A stretch of DNA of 34,437 nt from NCBI GenBank assembly GCA_023382265.1, contig JAMCPX010000033.1, forward strand, positions 1 to 34,437, read 5' to 3'. Positions 6,025 through 25,865 of this stretch are shown piece after piece. The first letter of the stretch is position 1; each line of letters opens with the position of its first letter. The translations under genes were made by a program, and so were the position numbers. A model generated the notes under the pieces. That model searched no databases, had not been told where the DNA came from, and was given only the letters and a program-made list of their open reading frames with translations. This stretch comes from Deltaproteobacteria bacterium (GTDB lineage: Bacteria > JAMCPX01).

Positions 6025-6052
6025 AAAAAGGCAGGCGCAAGCCTGCCTTTTT
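6025..6052. terminator. Bidirectional intrinsic terminator
   Basis: A perfect 7-bp GC-rich stem (GGCAGGC / GCCTGCC) closes on a GCAA tetraloop and is flanked by at least five A on the left and five T on the right, so it reads as a terminator on both strands. It lies between two convergent units: the acyl-CoA operon ending at 5846 and the cytochrome gene ending at 6075. The rest of the 5847-6074 gap holds nothing else I can support. Confidence 0.9.
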
Positions 6053-8627: not shown

Positions 8628-8660
8628 ACTGCCTCCTTAAATAGTTTTTGAACAATAAGA

Positions 8661-8676
8661 AGCAAGTTTTGTACCA
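8661..8676 (-). promoter_or_regulatory. Sigma-54 (-24/-12) promoter of the cytochrome gene
   Basis: Read on the minus strand the site is TGGTAC-AAAAC-TTGCT. It matches the RpoN consensus TGGCAC-N5-TTGCW at all but one named base, with the required GG-N10-GC spacing. The expected start of transcription is about 12 bases further on, near 8650, which leaves a leader of about 20 bases holding AAGGAGG and then the cytochrome ATG. Such promoters need an NtrC-family activator, and one is encoded at 19458-20762. Confidence 0.75.
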
Positions 8677-8810
8677 TTTGTGTAACATATTATTTTATCA
8701 AATATAATCATCGTTTCTTCTTTCATATTTAATAGATAATAGTGGGTAAAAGCACTCATATCTGGGTGATAACACACAGTTTAAAATTGTATTGATGAAT
8801 AACAAAAGAA

Positions 8811-8828
8811 ACTATTAACAAGAATAGT
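8811..8828. promoter_or_regulatory. Inverted repeat, candidate upstream activator site
   Basis: ACTATT-aacaag-AATAGT is a perfect 6-bp inverted repeat about 145 bases upstream of the sigma-54 promoter, in the usual range for a bacterial enhancer-binding site. An extra AATAGT half-site occurs at 8738-8743. Binding by the sigma-54 activator in this window is only a guess. Confidence 0.3.
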
Positions 8829-8927
8829 AAGGTCTCAACTTTATTTTTTTAAAATCGATTACCTGCTGTTCTCGTAATGTATCAATCAGTTTTAGTAGAT
8901 TGGGTGTCTATCTATTACTTTATAGCC

Positions 8928-17510: not shown

Positions 17511-17792
17511 ATGAGATTAAACAAATCAGAGATAGATAAAATAAGTTCTTTAATGATAAAACATCTGACCGAAAAAAATATTCTTGTAAAAACCGCCAAA
17601 CAAGATAATACTAAATCTATCATAAATAATGTTATTTATGATGATATGCTCAAAGAAGAAAAGTTAAATGAAGAAGTAAAAAACATAATGGAATCCTATG
17701 AATCGGAGCTTAAAAGTGGTAAAGTGGATTACAATAAATTGTTTAACATGATAAAACATCAGCTTATTAAGGAACGGAAACTTGTTATATGA
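17511..17792 (+). CDS. DUF507 family protein (first copy)
   Basis: A 93-residue, charged, mostly helical protein that matches the DUF507 pattern: an N-terminal MRLNKSEIDKISSLMIKHL, and a C-terminal helix ending HQLIKERKLV. No signal peptide or membrane segment is present. The family has no established function; tandem pairs like this one are common in deltaproteobacteria and related anaerobes. GAGG precedes the ATG, which is three bases after the Fur stop, so all are probably co-transcribed. The gene overlaps the next copy by four bases (ATGA). Confidence 0.8.
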   Translation: MRLNKSEIDKISSLMIKHLTEKNILVKTAKQDNTKSIINNVIYDDMLKEEKLNEEVKNIMESYESELKSGKVDYNKLFNMIKHQLIKERKLVI

Positions 17793-18067
17793 CAAGGCTA
17801 AATGATGATAGGATAAGCTACATATCCCATAACATCTTTGATAGGCTTTCCAAAAACAAACTGGTAGACCCGTCAAGGAGAGGTGAGATTATCAATATCC
17901 TGAAAGACAGTTTTATGGAGTTTGACAGACTTAATGATGCTATAGAAGAGGATGTTAAAAAACGTATCCGTTCTATGGCAAAAGAGATACCGGAGAACAG
18001 CCAGGAATGGAAGATACTTTACGCCAAAAACCTGGACCAGGAGCTGAAAAAGAAAGGCTTAAAATGA
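17789..18067 (+). CDS. DUF507 family protein (second copy)
   Basis: A 92-residue paralogue of the preceding gene that aligns with it along most of its length: the N-terminus MTRLNDDRISYISHNIFDRL corresponds to that of the first copy. It differs in the C-terminal part, which is basic (KNLDQELKKKGLK). The two may form a heterodimer; that is inference from tandem coupling. Its function is unknown. Translation start overlaps the previous stop. Confidence 0.8.
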   Translation: MTRLNDDRISYISHNIFDRLSKNKLVDPSRRGEIINILKDSFMEFDRLNDAIEEDVKKRIRSMAKEIPENSQEWKILYAKNLDQELKKKGLK

Positions 18068-18429: not shown

Positions 18430-19467
18430 ATGTCATTTAAAGGCTTGCATAATAAAAGATTGATCTTTATTATTGTCTTATCAATATTTACTGTATCGTT
18501 TCATTACATATATGGTTTGTCGCATAACTCATTTCTAATGGTAATTCATAATCGATTATGTTACATTCCCATCATGCTTGGCGGCTTATGGTTCGGCATA
18601 TACGGTGGCATAGGTACTGCCTTTGCTATATCAATTGCTATAACTCCTTTTATAGTTTTATATCACACTTCTATGTATAATGGATTTCTTTCAGATGAGC
18701 TTATTGAAATTGTTTTTTATCTATTTATAGGTTGGATTATAGGCATGCTTTCAACCGCTCAGCGAAAAGAACGTGAAAAAAATGATCTCTTAAAAGAACA
18801 GTTGAAGAATTCTGAGAAGCTATCTACAATTGGTGAGATATTTGCATATATGATGCATGAAATTAAAAATCCTTTAAATGCAATAAAAGGTACTGCAGAT
18901 ATTATTGCAGATAGCTCAGTTGAATCTCAAAAAAAACTTGAATTCTCAAATATACTAAAAAATGAGATTCAACGACTCAACAGAACCCTTGATTCGATGC
19001 TTGGCTATACAAAACTTAACCTTACATTAACATACTGTGATATTGGCGAAGAGCTTAACACCACTTTAAAAATGTTAGCACCACAAGCTGAAAAAACAGG
19101 GGTAAAAATGCAGCTATTCGGTATAAACAATTTTCAGGTTATTGTGGATTGCGATAAGATAAAACAGGTTTTTATAAATCTTGTCCTTAATGCCTTTGAT
19201 GCAATGAAAAATGGCGGTTTATTAAACATATCATTACAACAGTCAGCAAATGGATATATTGATATAGCATTCAAAGATACAGGACAGGGTATATTACCTG
19301 AAAATATGAAAAAGTTGTTTAAACCCTTTTTTACAACAAAATCTCACGGAACAGGGCTTGGACTTGCTATATCAAAACGAATAGTAGAGGAGCATAATGG
19401 CAAGTTGCTTGTTGAAAACGAGTATGGCAATGGAACATCTTTTATAGTGAGGCTACCATGCAATTAG
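18430..19467 (+). CDS. Membrane sensor histidine kinase (NtrB/AtoS-like)
   Basis: A 345-residue sensor kinase. Residues 1-110 contain about four transmembrane segments (around 10-28, 42-60, 63-79 and 90-107) with almost no periplasmic loop, so it probably senses within the membrane or through a partner. A linker of charged heptads (112-135) leads to the dimerisation/phosphoacceptor helix with His143 in MMHEIKNPLNAIKG. The ATPase domain shows the N box NLVLNAFDAM (250-259), the G1 motif DTGQGI (283-288) and GTGLGLA (307-313). Its stop lies inside the response-regulator gene, overlapping it by 10 bases, so the two form a coupled pair. The stimulus is unknown. Confidence 0.88.
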   Translation: MSFKGLHNKRLIFIIVLSIFTVSFHYIYGLSHNSFLMVIHNRLCYIPIMLGGLWFGIYGGIGTAFAISIAITPFIVLYHTSMYNGFLSDELIEIVFYLFIGWIIGMLSTAQRKEREKNDLLKEQLKNSEKLSTIGEIFAYMMHEIKNPLNAIKGTADIIADSSVESQKKLEFSNILKNEIQRLNRTLDSMLGYTKLNLTLTYCDIGEELNTTLKMLAPQAEKTGVKMQLFGINNFQVIVDCDKIKQVFINLVLNAFDAMKNGGLLNISLQQSANGYIDIAFKDTGQGILPENMKKLFKPFFTTKSHGTGLGLAISKRIVEEHNGKLLVENEYGNGTSFIVRLPCN

Positions 19468-20762
19468 TAAGGATTGCCGTAATAGAAGATGATAACACGC
19501 AAAGAAAGGTTATAGAATTTAATCTGTCAAGAGAAGGATATAATGTAAAGGGTGCCGGGACAATAAGTGAAGGTTTTAAACTTATAAAAGAACAAAATCC
19601 TGCTATAGTTATAACAGATGTCATGTTACCTGATGGAGATGGCGTAGAACTGCTTGGTAAAATTATATCTGCAAACCCATCAACTATTGTTATAGTTATA
19701 ACAGCGTATGGAACCATACGAATGGCTGTAGATGCTATCCGTAAAGGGGCTTATAACTACATTACAAAGCCTTATGAGATGGATGAACTGTTATTATCTA
19801 TAAGGCAAGCCCTGTCATCAATGGAAACAAGGCAGCATACACTAAAGGATGCTGTTCAGCTTATTGGCAGTTCAGAACCTATTCAAAAGATAAAGCAGAT
19901 GATAGAGCAGGTAAAAGACTCTGATATTCCTGTACTAATAACAGGTGAATCCGGAACGGGTAAAGAGATCATGGCAAGACTGATACATTTTACAAGTAGT
20001 AGAAAGGACAAACATTTTGTTGCATTAAACTGTGCAGCAATACCGGCAAGCCTGCTTGAAGCAGAGCTTTTTGGCTATGTTAAAGGTGCCTTTAGCGGTG
20101 CTGACAAAGCTAAACCAGGTAGATTCCAAATTGCAGATGGTGGTACATTATTCCTTGATGAAATAGGCAGCATGGATGTTGCTTTACAATCAAAACTTTT
20201 AAGGGTTGTGGAAACAGGAGAGATAGAGATGCTTGGTGAAGTTGAAGCTAAAAAAGTCAATGTAAGAATCATCTCAGCAACAAATGCAGACCTGAATGAC
20301 TTAATAATACGTGGAATATTTCGAGAAGACCTGTACTACAGGCTTAATGTCTTTAATATCCATGTCCCTCCACTAAGAGAAAGAAAACAGGACATAACAA
20401 TGCTTATGAATCATTTTATAAATCTTTATTCCGAAGACAAAACACTATCAATAGCTAACAAAGCAATAGACATGCTAATAAATTATCAATGGTATGGGAA
20501 TGTTAGAGAGCTTGAAAATTTTATAAGGCGTATGGCTGTTACAAAAAAACATGGGGTCATAACAGATGAAGATATAAGCCCTTATTTGAAATCCAATATC
20601 AGTAGTCTTAAGCAAGACTCATCACTTGATGAAGTAGAGAAGCAGATGATCTTATCTGCGCTTGAGAAATCAGGTCATAATAAAGCAATGGCTGCAGAGA
20701 TATTGAAAATACCGAGGCACAAGCTTATATACAGAATAAAAAAATTTGGTATACACGAATGA
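19458..20762 (+). CDS. Sigma-54-dependent NtrC-family response regulator
   Basis: A 434-residue enhancer-binding protein. The receiver domain has phosphoacceptor Asp54 in VITDVMLPDGDG and Lys104. The AAA+ domain has Walker A GESGTGKE (163-170), the sigma-54 contact loop GAFSGA (210-215) and Walker B GTLFLDEIG (229-237). The C-terminus is a Fis-type helix-turn-helix around EKSGHNKAMAAEILKIPRHK. It would activate RpoN promoters when phosphorylated by the kinase encoded just before it. A strong candidate target in this window is the cytochrome promoter at 8661-8676; the two are not adjacent, so that link is inference. Confidence 0.92.
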   Translation: MQLVRIAVIEDDNTQRKVIEFNLSREGYNVKGAGTISEGFKLIKEQNPAIVITDVMLPDGDGVELLGKIISANPSTIVIVITAYGTIRMAVDAIRKGAYNYITKPYEMDELLLSIRQALSSMETRQHTLKDAVQLIGSSEPIQKIKQMIEQVKDSDIPVLITGESGTGKEIMARLIHFTSSRKDKHFVALNCAAIPASLLEAELFGYVKGAFSGADKAKPGRFQIADGGTLFLDEIGSMDVALQSKLLRVVETGEIEMLGEVEAKKVNVRIISATNADLNDLIIRGIFREDLYYRLNVFNIHVPPLRERKQDITMLMNHFINLYSEDKTLSIANKAIDMLINYQWYGNVRELENFIRRMAVTKKHGVITDEDISPYLKSNISSLKQDSSLDEVEKQMILSALEKSGHNKAMAAEILKIPRHKLIYRIKKFGIHE

Positions 20763-21896: not shown

Positions 21897-23207
21897 TCAG
21901 GATACTTGTTTAAAAGCCTCATAAGCATGCTTTATAGTCCTGTCTATGTTTCTGACCGTATGCGCCATGGATACAAAGTGCGCTTCAAACTGTGACGGCG
22001 GGAGGTATACCCCCTTTTCAAACATATACTGGAAGAACTTTGCATATTTTTTTGTATCGGATCTCATAGCTGACTGCAGGTCTTTTACATGTCCTTCTGT
22101 AAAAAATGGTGTAAACATTGAGCCTATGCGGTTGATTGTGATCTTAGCGCCAGCCATCTTCGCAGCATCCTCTAATCCTTCAATAAGGTATGCTGTTTTT
22201 TTTTCGAGGTCTTCGTAAAACAAGGGCTTTGATTTTATTTCTTTTATCACACTGATGCCTGCTGCCATTGCAACCGGATTGCCCGATAATGTGCCTGCCT
22301 GGTAAACAGGTCCTTCCGGAGATACAAGCTTCATAATCTCCTTTTTACCTCCATAAGCACCAACCGGCATACCGCCGCCGATAATCTTCCCGAGCGTTGT
22401 GATATCAGGCTTAATATCATAGTATATCTGTGCCCCGCCTGATGAAAGTCTGAACCCGGTTATTACCTCATCAAAAATAAGCACTATCCCATGCTTGGCA
22501 GTTAATTCTCTTACTGTCTGAAGAAACCCGGGCTCGGGTAAAACAACACCCATGTTACCTGCAACTGGCTCAATTATAATAGCTGCTATCTCAGCAGCCT
22601 GTTCATCCGTTATTCTTTTTAGCGCATCCATATTATTGTATGGAGACGTTAATGTATTTTTTGCCATTGCCTCCGGAATTCCGGGGCTTGACGGAACACC
22701 AAGTGTTGTCAAACCGGAGCCTGCTTTTATTAAAAACTGATCTCCATGGCCATGATAACCGCCTTCAAATTTTACAATCTTTTCTCTTTTTGTGAATGCC
22801 CTTGCTACTCTGACTGCACTCATTGTTGCTTCTGTCCCCGAGTTAACCATTCTTACAAGCTCTATTGATGGAAATGATTCTTTGATCAATTCGGCAAGCC
22901 TTATCTCATAAGGGCATAATGTACCAAAACTTGTACCCGACCTGATAGCCCTTCGCATGGCATTTAATACCTTTATGTTGGCATGCCCGAGTATCAATGG
23001 CCCCCATGACATACAATAATCTATGTAGCTATATCCATCAACATCATAAAGCCTGTCTCCCTTTGCCCTTGAAACAACGATAGGCTCACCGCCAACCGCG
23101 TGAAAGGCCCGAACAGGGCTATTTACGCCGCCCGGCATTAGCGCTTTTGCTTTATTAAAATAATTGAGTGAGTGCGGTCTTTTCATGTTTTTTTGCCAGG
23201 ATTTCAT
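21897..23207 (-). CDS. hemL: Glutamate-1-semialdehyde 2,1-aminomutase
   Basis: A 436-residue PLP enzyme that converts glutamate-1-semialdehyde to 5-aminolevulinate in the C5 haem pathway. Its diagnostic parts are the N-terminal ALMPGGVNSPVRAF (22-35), VNSGTEATMSAVRVAR (121-136), IFDEVITGFR (244-253) with the PLP-binding Asp246, and the Schiff-base Lys274 in TTLGKIIGGGMPVGA. The length is normal. A second Met at residue 8 (MKRPHSLNYFN) is an equally likely start; both have weak Shine-Dalgarno sequences. Either start overlaps the end of the metalloprotease gene in another frame, by 53 or 32 bases. A haem gene fits a bacterium that makes multiheme cytochromes. Confidence 0.93.
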   Translation of the reverse strand: MKSWQKNMKRPHSLNYFNKAKALMPGGVNSPVRAFHAVGGEPIVVSRAKGDRLYDVDGYSYIDYCMSWGPLILGHANIKVLNAMRRAIRSGTSFGTLCPYEIRLAELIKESFPSIELVRMVNSGTEATMSAVRVARAFTKREKIVKFEGGYHGHGDQFLIKAGSGLTTLGVPSSPGIPEAMAKNTLTSPYNNMDALKRITDEQAAEIAAIIIEPVAGNMGVVLPEPGFLQTVRELTAKHGIVLIFDEVITGFRLSSGGAQIYYDIKPDITTLGKIIGGGMPVGAYGGKKEIMKLVSPEGPVYQAGTLSGNPVAMAAGISVIKEIKSKPLFYEDLEKKTAYLIEGLEDAAKMAGAKITINRIGSMFTPFFTEGHVKDLQSAMRSDTKKYAKFFQYMFEKGVYLPPSQFEAHFVSMAHTVRNIDRTIKHAYEAFKQVS

Positions 23208-25719
23208 AGTATCTTATGAACAGAAATTCCAATAAAATAAATTTTAAGTAGTATAAAGTAAAACCAATAAAAATGAATAAAGGCAGCAACACATATCTTA
23301 TCAAGTCCATGTTTACGCGGCTGCTTTGTGCAAGTTTTATTATATAGGGGGATAAAGCATAGTAGTAGACATGCACCAATTGTCTCCCGATTTTAGTTCT
23401 CATCAGATCTCCTCTTATATCCCGTAGAGGTTTGAAAAGATCGCTGTCATTACCATAAATGGCGCTCAATGCACATATACCATTCTTACTCGTATTGGAC
23501 GTAAGCACATTGATGTTGAATGACACATCTGTTGAACCATAGCAGTTGGAAATGTTAATGCCTACAGGATTAGTGCCTTTATCCTTGATTGTTGTCAGCC
23601 AGTGAACAATACCGTTATTGTCTATCGTAAGCGAGGATGGACCTGTCGTAACGGTATAACTAACCGGAGATGCGCCGGTTACCGGGAGGCTGAACGTAAA
23701 AGCTGAACCGGCATCTACGTTAAATGATGCGGGTATATTCGTGGAAAGGAACGGCATTGCATTATTAGGATCAAGTATAACATTAAAGTCAGCACCACCA
23801 TTATTATTAAAACTTATGTTGTCTATTGTAATATTTGTATTATAGCCTGTATAGCTTATGCTTGATGGCGATGATGACTCGGATAGGGCATCTCCTGTTG
23901 TATAGTAATCCTGTGGGTCACCAATATTTATACCTTTTTCAAGGTCATAAGTTCCATCAGCCTGAACAAGCGCAACCTGGTAGTGTGAAGTTGTATGCCC
24001 GGGATACCATGGGTAGGTATTCCCTGTAATTGCATCATCTACATGCCATATTAATAAGCCGTCACCTGGCAGATCCCTGTCAAAAGATGTATTTATAGAA
24101 TCCGATATCAGGAAATACTCAAGTGGTCCCATATTTTGTGTATGAATCTTAATAGCTCCGCCGTTAAGTTCAATAGGATTTAAAGTAACATTACACTCAT
24201 TAGATCTGATAGTTGTCGGGGTAAGCCAGCCAAGCAATTGCCGGGACCATGGTGATAATTCTGTAGGATAAGGGCCATGCGCTCCATAAGACATAAGTTC
24301 AAAATTACCTAAGCCATAAGCCCCATCCTGCTGCCAGTTTGTGTCATACAGATCAATAAGTCCAAGTGAATGGCCAAATTCATGAGCAAAAACACCCATA
24401 TCTATTGGTCCGACAGATCCCGTAAAAGTGGTAGAAGAAATCGATTCTTGATCAAAATACGGGAGCTCTGTTTGCTCCGGCAGTATCATGTATCCGTTTA
24501 TGGTTGTACCATTACATGTAATGGGTTCCATCATTGTATTCGACCAGATGTCGTTTAAATAACCTGTTTGCTCTGCACCAAGCCCCTGATGCACTATAAT
24601 GACATACCTTATACCATTCTGATCTCCAAAGCTTGAAAAAGGCACTCCTGCTGTACAGGCATCTGCAATGGCCTCTCTTGCAAGCGTATCTGCACCGGGT
24701 GTACCAAATCCATACTGGCCATAACCATAGTAATTATGACTATTGGTAGCGGTGAACCAGCCGTAAACAGTGCCTGTTACAGTCAACGAGCCGTGCGACA
24801 TATCCTTGTAGAACAAATCAAGACTTGAAAATGGGTATAGAGGAGCAGGACTGATTGTTGAAAAAAGCATCTGTTCAAAATAATTGGTAGTGGTTGTTGT
24901 CAGCGGCGTTGTATCGGAAAAATTTATAAGCAGAACCGGAACATCAATGGTACGGCTTGAAGGACTGAAGGTACTTCCAGTACCATATACGTCAAGGGGT
25001 GTAAATGTGTATGTATTGTTAAATCCAAATGAATTCAGGATTATTTTTTTTGATAATAATCTTATATCAGGAGGTGCATAGGAAGGCACATCATAACTTT
25101 TTAGTAATAATTCAGCACCAGGATGACTTAAAATCTTGACCCATCCTATGCCTTTTTTATACCAGTATTCCTGACTTAGAATGCTCTTTTCAAACTCAAG
25201 TACGTGCAAACAATTTTTAAAAATTCCATCAGGTGTGTTAACAACAGATGTCGTGCTTTTAATTATGAATGTATAATCTTTATATGTCCATTTTTTCCCT
25301 TTTTCTATTGGTGATTTTAAGAGCAATTTTTCCTGCTGTATCTTGTGCCTTAAAACACCATGTTCAAGTAATTCATTTGATTTGAAGACATAAGTCCATT
25401 TGGTTTTCATGGCCGAACCAAAAAAATTTACATCCTGTTCTATTTCATATTTGCCGTTCTTTATGCTTCTCACACGCCTTGATATCGTCCCTATCTGCAT
25501 TATGGGTTTTTTAGTTGTTTTAACAATGTATTCCCATTTGGCCCCTGCAATTATCGGGAAGTAATCCTTAATCCCTGCATAAGCAGGGGTTGAGTTTGTA
25601 AGAAGAGTAATGAGGGGAAATAGCAATGTTAACCCAAGAAACGCAATACTGGAGTCTGTTCGTTCGTTCAACACTGAGAGCCACTTAAGACACTTGAAGT
25701 TGTTATCCTTAATTACCAT
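23155..25719 (-). CDS. Secreted M6-like metalloprotease with C-terminal CFI-box-like sorting tail
   Basis: An 854-residue exported protein from the ATG at 25719, preferred over one 33 bases upstream because AGAGGA sits just before it. A signal peptide with a long N-region probably ends at AYA (46-48). A beta domain precedes an M6-like protease domain with the zinc motif HEFGHSLGLIDLYD (446-459; zinc ligands His446 and His450, catalytic Glu447), followed by GDGLLIWHVDD. An Ig-like domain comes next, beginning MPFLSTNIPASFNVDAGSAF. From Cys749 the tail CALSAIYG then KPLRDIRGDLMRTKIGRQL and a membrane helix (about 800-825) with basic residues after it resembles CFI-box C-terminal anchors. It probably degrades extracellular protein or processes surface proteins. 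The stop overlaps hemL. Confidence 0.82.
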   Translation of the reverse strand: MVIKDNNFKCLKWLSVLNERTDSSIAFLGLTLLFPLITLLTNSTPAYAGIKDYFPIIAGAKWEYIVKTTKKPIMQIGTISRRVRSIKNGKYEIEQDVNFFGSAMKTKWTYVFKSNELLEHGVLRHKIQQEKLLLKSPIEKGKKWTYKDYTFIIKSTTSVVNTPDGIFKNCLHVLEFEKSILSQEYWYKKGIGWVKILSHPGAELLLKSYDVPSYAPPDIRLLSKKIILNSFGFNNTYTFTPLDVYGTGSTFSPSSRTIDVPVLLINFSDTTPLTTTTTNYFEQMLFSTISPAPLYPFSSLDLFYKDMSHGSLTVTGTVYGWFTATNSHNYYGYGQYGFGTPGADTLAREAIADACTAGVPFSSFGDQNGIRYVIIVHQGLGAEQTGYLNDIWSNTMMEPITCNGTTINGYMILPEQTELPYFDQESISSTTFTGSVGPIDMGVFAHEFGHSLGLIDLYDTNWQQDGAYGLGNFELMSYGAHGPYPTELSPWSRQLLGWLTPTTIRSNECNVTLNPIELNGGAIKIHTQNMGPLEYFLISDSINTSFDRDLPGDGLLIWHVDDAITGNTYPWYPGHTTSHYQVALVQADGTYDLEKGINIGDPQDYYTTGDALSESSSPSSISYTGYNTNITIDNISFNNNGGADFNVILDPNNAMPFLSTNIPASFNVDAGSAFTFSLPVTGASPVSYTVTTGPSSLTIDNNGIVHWLTTIKDKGTNPVGINISNCYGSTDVSFNINVLTSNTSKNGICALSAIYGNDSDLFKPLRDIRGDLMRTKIGRQLVHVYYYALSPYIIKLAQSSRVNMDLIRYVLLPLFIFIGFTLYYLKFILLEFLFIRYYEILAKKHEKTALTQLF

Positions 25720-25865
25720 TTTGTCCTCTGCCAGTTTATGTGCATGCAGCACGTATTATTTTTTTTGCTTATACTCGCTGCAGCCCATATCAGACGCATT
25801 GTTTCACCCATCTCACAGCATTTCCTATTTTTTCAAATACATCACCCGGATTAATAACATATCAT

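Follow-up and report, generated by a model that had tools for sequence, protein, structure and literature searches.

In Geobacter sulfurreducens, the RpoN regulon includes cytochromes of extracellular electron transfer, and the genes of sigma-54 activators (bEBPs) lie often, but not always, beside their targets (PMC2725144). In Desulfovibrio vulgaris, the sigma-54 regulator DVU3142 has been assigned to the operon of the octaheme cytochrome complex Ohc, and most bEBP regulons of Desulfovibrio comprise one to four operons (PMC4641369). Here, we analyzed a locus from an uncultured, phylum-level isolated family, in which the region of about 300 bp upstream of a nine-heme cytochrome gene is very probably a sigma-54 (RpoN) enhancer-type control region, judging from comparison among relatives.

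The window (the whole stretch of DNA that was analyzed, 34,437 nucleotides) is contig C33 of genome G000 (2.63 Mb, 73 contigs, 95.8% complete). The comparison set comprised nine genomes (G000-G008), the only ones returned by a phylum-wide search and all from one family; they are MAGs, 80-99% complete, of which six (G000-G005) carry an orthologue of the cytochrome and three (G006-G008) are relatives without it. Sequence comparison in this set is the source of the promoter, of the tandem boxes with their conservation and exclusivity, of RpoN and of the bEBP set described below (Table 1). Genome-wide site counts come from pattern searches and chosen stretches, with reversed patterns as controls; the double-box pattern was searched in all nine genomes with up to three mismatches and its own reversed control, and column-invariance figures derive from a single alignment of the six orthologous upstream regions (G000-G005).

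Table 1. Positions in the window of the cytochrome gene, its predicted control elements and the kinase/regulator pair.
Feature	Position	Strand	Remark
Intrinsic terminator	6025..6052	minus	strong, directly after the cytochrome gene
Nine-heme c-type cytochrome lipoprotein, 850 aa	6075..8627	minus	nine CXXCH
Shine-Dalgarno AAGGAGG	8632..8638	minus	23 bases downstream of the -12 C
Predicted sigma-54 promoter, -24/-12 elements TGGTACAAAACTTGC	8662..8676	minus	consensus match and conservation in G001-G005
IHF-like element AAATAATATGTTA	8683..8695	minus	position-conserved; possible bend between UAS and promoter
Predicted proximal activator box of the UAS, TGAGTGCTTTTACCCA	8743..8758	minus	conserved in six genomes
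Predicted distal activator box of the UAS, TGTGTGTTATCACCCA	8763..8778	minus	conserved in six genomes
Membrane histidine kinase (HisKA)	18430..19467	plus	about 10 kb from the promoter
NtrC-type response regulator, receiver-AAA+-Fis, GAFSGA loop	19458..20762	plus	one of about ten bEBPs

The nine hemes ascribed to the cytochrome by the first-pass annotation agree with the nine CXXCH motifs counted in its product, the N-terminal part of which is collagen-like and contains CarboxypepD_reg. Its N-terminus reads ...LSAGC, and those of orthologues ...LIAGC and ...LLVGC (lipobox read by eye), suggesting a multiheme lipoprotein with a putative outer-surface location and a putative role in electron transfer. 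Sequence comparison to solved structures gave no PDB match for this protein, and its orthologues in five other genomes of the family share 69-80% protein identity. Since a strong terminator follows directly, the gene is taken to be a single-gene (monocistronic) unit. The neighborhood varies among genomes, with ribosomal and RNA-polymerase genes in G002 and G004 and a divergent M6 peptidase gene in G003 and G005; in the latter two, the M6 metalloprotease (L017, L018) shares the control region with the cytochrome, and in G000 the corresponding M6-family metalloprotease (window 23155-25752) lies 15 kb from it. Elsewhere in the window, DUF507 (17511-18067) is spread over two neighboring ORFs, one corresponding to the front half of the family and the other to the back half.

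A sigma-54 promoter of the form TGGTAC-N5-TTGC, with exact GG-N10-GC spacing, had been proposed on the minus strand some 20 bases before a Shine-Dalgarno region. Both elements are there: the minus strand from 8676 to 8662 reads TGGTACAAAACTTGC (8661 being the following T) with this spacing, one mismatch from TGGCAC-N5-TTGC, and ends 34 bases ahead of the ATG (8627-8625). Taken alone, the bare consensus at up to two mismatches is about as common in the window as chance would have it (31 matches vs 29.7 expected), and genome-wide TGGYAC-N5-TTGC yields 15 sites, most of them inside genes, vs 5 for the reversed control. The site is raised above chance by its conservation across the six orthologous upstream regions, being found at the equivalent position in all six genomes with the cytochrome; in the five relatives TGGTAT-N5-TTGC stands 35-37 bases before the ATG. 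In the alignment, 11 of 15 promoter columns are invariant, compared with 6/23 from promoter to Shine-Dalgarno, 12/66 from the UAS to the -24 element and 1/109 upstream of the UAS. On this alignment, the conserved position of the promoter is read as selection, not chance, and the transcription start is predicted near 8650. A further good candidate for a sigma-54 promoter is TGGCACGATAATTGC at G000:C10:8987-9001 (L006), with a gene for a 423-aa outer-membrane-efflux-like protein 57 bases downstream of it.

About 100 bases upstream of the promoter, a feature absent from the first-pass annotation was found, namely two boxes with the layout TGTGTGTTATCACCCA-4-TGAGTGCTTTTACCCA (8743-8778), both approximating the palindrome TGKGTG-N4-CACCCA, with starts 20 bases apart, that is, two helical turns. 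The double box occurs exactly once per genome in G000-G005, always at the nine-heme cytochrome gene; at up to three mismatches there was none in G006-G008, which are without the orthologue, and the reversed control gave 0 in all nine genomes. It is strictly paired with the sigma-54 promoter in the six genomes, where 69% of it is invariant, and the distance from the start of the proximal box down to the -12 C is 96-115 bases, the UAS-to-promoter distance in G000 being 15-19 bases shorter than in relatives. By sequence, the double box resembles a UAS, the enhancer at which a sigma-54 activator binds. None of the distant homologues examined (~30-37% identity) has double box and promoter together, so the switch is, as far as seen, confined to the family. 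Paralogues with weaker promoter-like and UAS-like sequences are present on C17 and C19 of G000, in G003 (L021) and in G005 (L022). Directly upstream of the C19 paralogue lie recombinase/transposase-like ORFs (L142 724-4294; Tn3-type by eye), a possible sign of mobility of the cytochrome along with its switch.

Between UAS and promoter, the IHF-like core reads CAANNNNTTA in the five relatives and TAANNNNTTA in G000, with the distance to the boxes kept; a test with WATCAANNNNTTR matched 7-8 of 9 positions; taken one at a time, none of the sequences reaches significance, and G000 has the weakest match. Together, these elements point to a mechanism in which RpoN-polymerase would wait at the -24/-12 site (8662-8676) and a bEBP would bind the tandem boxes; a DNA bend at the IHF-like site would let this activator reach the polymerase, and the promoter would be opened by the AAA+ domain of the activator, the cytochrome gene staying off unless the activator is switched on.

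The genome encodes the sigma factor and the class of activator that such a mechanism calls for. RpoN is complete (449 aa, AID + CBD + DBD, on C57; TIGR02395 above cut-off) and about ten bEBPs are present, among which fragments at C26 and C55, assigned to a single orthologue group, seem to be two parts of one gene interrupted by a contig break. In this context, the sigma-54 control of the cytochrome claimed at the outset is supported, as far as sequence goes, by the conserved -24/-12 elements, the conserved tandem UAS, the complete RpoN and the single-gene unit closed by its own terminator. Four bEBP groups (C7, C17, PilR-like C28 and the GAF type) occur in all six genomes with the UAS; the C47 type was found in UAS-less G006-G008 but not in UAS-bearing G001. 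Therefore, no bEBP group fits the UAS distribution perfectly, and comparison of recognition helices singled out none. The C28 bEBP lies beside pilB/pilT/pilC-like genes, with a PilS-like kinase; PilR is not favored as the activator, because the sigma-54-like sites at two pilin genes are without this UAS. These sites, TGGCATAACAATTGC and TGGCATACGCCTTGC, lie just upstream of type IV pilin genes on L298 and L300 (G000:C50 and C34).

Single boxes at up to one mismatch are not enriched in the genome (64 vs 53 for the reversed control); therefore, any claim of a regulon rests on the double box and on eight exact single boxes. Six of the eight lie upstream of multiheme cytochrome genes, two at the window gene, two at the C19 paralogue, one on C18 and one on C40. 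As regulon members, we rejected the exact boxes C15:36210, inside a coding frame, and C19:1493, inside a long ORF that is probably a transposase. A tandem-like site at C56:11219 is downstream of a nearby sigma-54-like site.

C18 (L177) and C40 (L178) of G000 are 94% identical copies of one cluster, which encodes a 12-heme cytochrome, an NHL propeller, tetraheme OmcE-like proteins and a Wzy/TPR protein. The tetraheme proteins match PDB 7tfs (E 5.6e-22 and 5.3e-28), whose database entry is titled 'Cytochrome c' and which we take to be OmcE. A third copy of the cluster, in G005:C118, has an OmcE-like protein 89% identical, and a UAS-like box lies upstream of the OmcE-like gene in all three copies, in G005 as the perfect palindrome TGGGTGAAAACACCCA. 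At the OmcE-like promoter the -24 half TGGCATGA is kept, while the -12 element is CTGT/CTGA, not TTGC, and the C18 box sits in a local duplication. A sigma-54-like site, TGGCATGATGTTTGC (L177:4544-4558), was also seen in the C18 cluster, some 90 bases ahead of the 12-heme cytochrome. The single box at the OmcE-like cluster hints at a small electron-transfer regulon.

As to the activator, we would tentatively place a kinase/bEBP pair on C47 ahead of the other candidates. Under this possible reading, a heme-c-sensor kinase and its partner would drive both the cytochrome and the OmcE-like nanowire cluster as a redox-responsive regulon. The sensor part of the kinase contains C[FY][RK]CH in all six genomes where readable, and such a CXXCH-type motif suggests covalent heme, hence a redox sensor; moreover, the UAS box precedes the OmcE-like gene in G000 (C18, C40) and G005, and the OmcE-like proteins match 7tfs along nearly the whole length. 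Beside the nanowire cluster in G005:C118, a contig that may, however, be foreign DNA, there is also a remnant of a C47-type DNA-binding domain. Against the C47 pair stand its distribution, with absence from UAS-bearing G001 and presence in UAS-less G006-G008, the occurrence of the four other bEBP groups in all six UAS genomes, and the existence on C15 of another kinase whose sensor bears a CXXCH motif (CYACH). Thus, the C47 pair is the best of several weak candidates, better than the pair in the window, and is still unproven. Both CXXCH-bearing kinases (L183 7530-8990 on C47 and L176 8409-10004 on C15) adjoin a sigma-54 activator and are possible heme-c redox sensors. The remnant in G005:C118 (L296, first 780 bases of the reverse complement) is about 100 aa long and holds the DNA-binding domain only; it is directly upstream of the nanowire cluster and shares up to 94% identity with the copy in G002.

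The full chain is more doubtful than the C47 assignment, namely that a heme-c-sensing kinase and a sigma-54 activator sense redox conditions on the outer side of the inner membrane and, via TGKGTG-N4-CACCCA boxes, switch on the nine-heme surface cytochrome and OmcE-like nanowires as a dedicated extracellular-electron-transfer regulon. If the box does control the nanowires as well, surface cytochromes and nanowires would answer to a single regulator, a point open to binding assays that need no culture of the organism.

The activator originally suggested was the kinase/NtrC-type pair about 10 kb away. The pair itself was recovered as described, a HisKA kinase and a receiver-AAA+-Fis regulator (18430-20762), and its domains are intact (receiver, AAA+ with GAFSGA, Fis-type DNA-binding); it is on the same contig as the cytochrome, and, among the five other UAS genomes, four (G001-G004) have orthologues, 55-62% identical. 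Its link to the promoter fared less well. The pair has orthologues in G006-G008, which have neither double box nor cytochrome orthologue, whereas G005, with both, yielded a paralogous group only (MAG incompleteness weakens this and every other absence); in relatives it lies on other contigs with other neighbors, never beside the cytochrome, and no UAS box is near it. Furthermore, its C-terminal DNA-binding region is 57-72% identical among orthologues, set against a UAS that is 69% invariant. Nothing apart from a separation of 10 kb in a single genome speaks for the link, which is not supported, and we consider it improbable that this pair is the cognate activator of the UAS. An apparent covariation of UAS box 1 with one NtrC recognition-helix residue (T/His, C/Tyr; five genomes, by eye) was set aside, the sample being too small. 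The cognate activator is probably one of the genome's ten or so bEBPs, not the window's, and being on the same contig is a poor guide to it. The membrane signal and the extracellular electron transfer that had been attached to the pair are likewise presumed.

The boxes might instead bind a repressor or another non-bEBP regulator, independent of the sigma-54 promoter, given that near-palindromes serve many regulator classes. This reading is slightly less probable again, since two boxes in helical phase about 100 bases upstream are the usual bEBP layout, and since their pairing with the sigma-54 promoter is strict. It is hardly credible that the -24/-12 match is a chance one and that transcription of the gene depends on an ordinary sigma-70 promoter: in its favor are the chance-level count of the bare consensus and a weak sigma-70-like site at 8811-8838, but the six genomes keep the -24/-12 position despite divergence of the DNA around it, sigma-70-like sites are themselves at chance level (8 found vs 7.7 expected), and the one at 8811-8838 is upstream of the UAS, in the stretch with a single invariant column.

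In brief, with its promoter, enhancer and shortlist of activators, the enhancer-type sigma-54 control favored here offers a sequence-level way into the question of when a putative surface electron-transfer protein is switched on in an uncultured lineage. Compared with MtrC/MtrF-type cytochromes, the window protein is alike in its lipoprotein-type N-terminus and in a heme part weakly matching Pfam Mtrc-MtrF domains II/IV (E 5.7e-12), and unlike in its nine hemes, its collagen-like/CarboxypepD_reg N-terminal part, the lack of an adjacent porin-cytochrome partner gene and of a solved-structure match. Nor is it OmcE, even though the OmcE-like genes on C18 and C40 carry its activator box upstream. 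With the RpoN regulon of G. sulfurreducens it very probably shares sigma-54 control that includes cytochromes, in another lineage and another cytochrome family, and it differs by having a tandem UAS of its own and no adjoining bEBP gene. With DVU3142 and Ohc it would share the assignment of a sigma-54 activator to a multiheme cytochrome, Ohc being an operon with membrane subunits and the window a single lipoprotein gene; one double box per genome is in line with bEBP regulons of one to four operons (PMC4641369). Given these precedents in Geobacter and Desulfovibrio, sigma-54/UAS control is of a known kind, of which the window system is a new member, what is new being the box, the cytochrome family, the lineage and the regulator.
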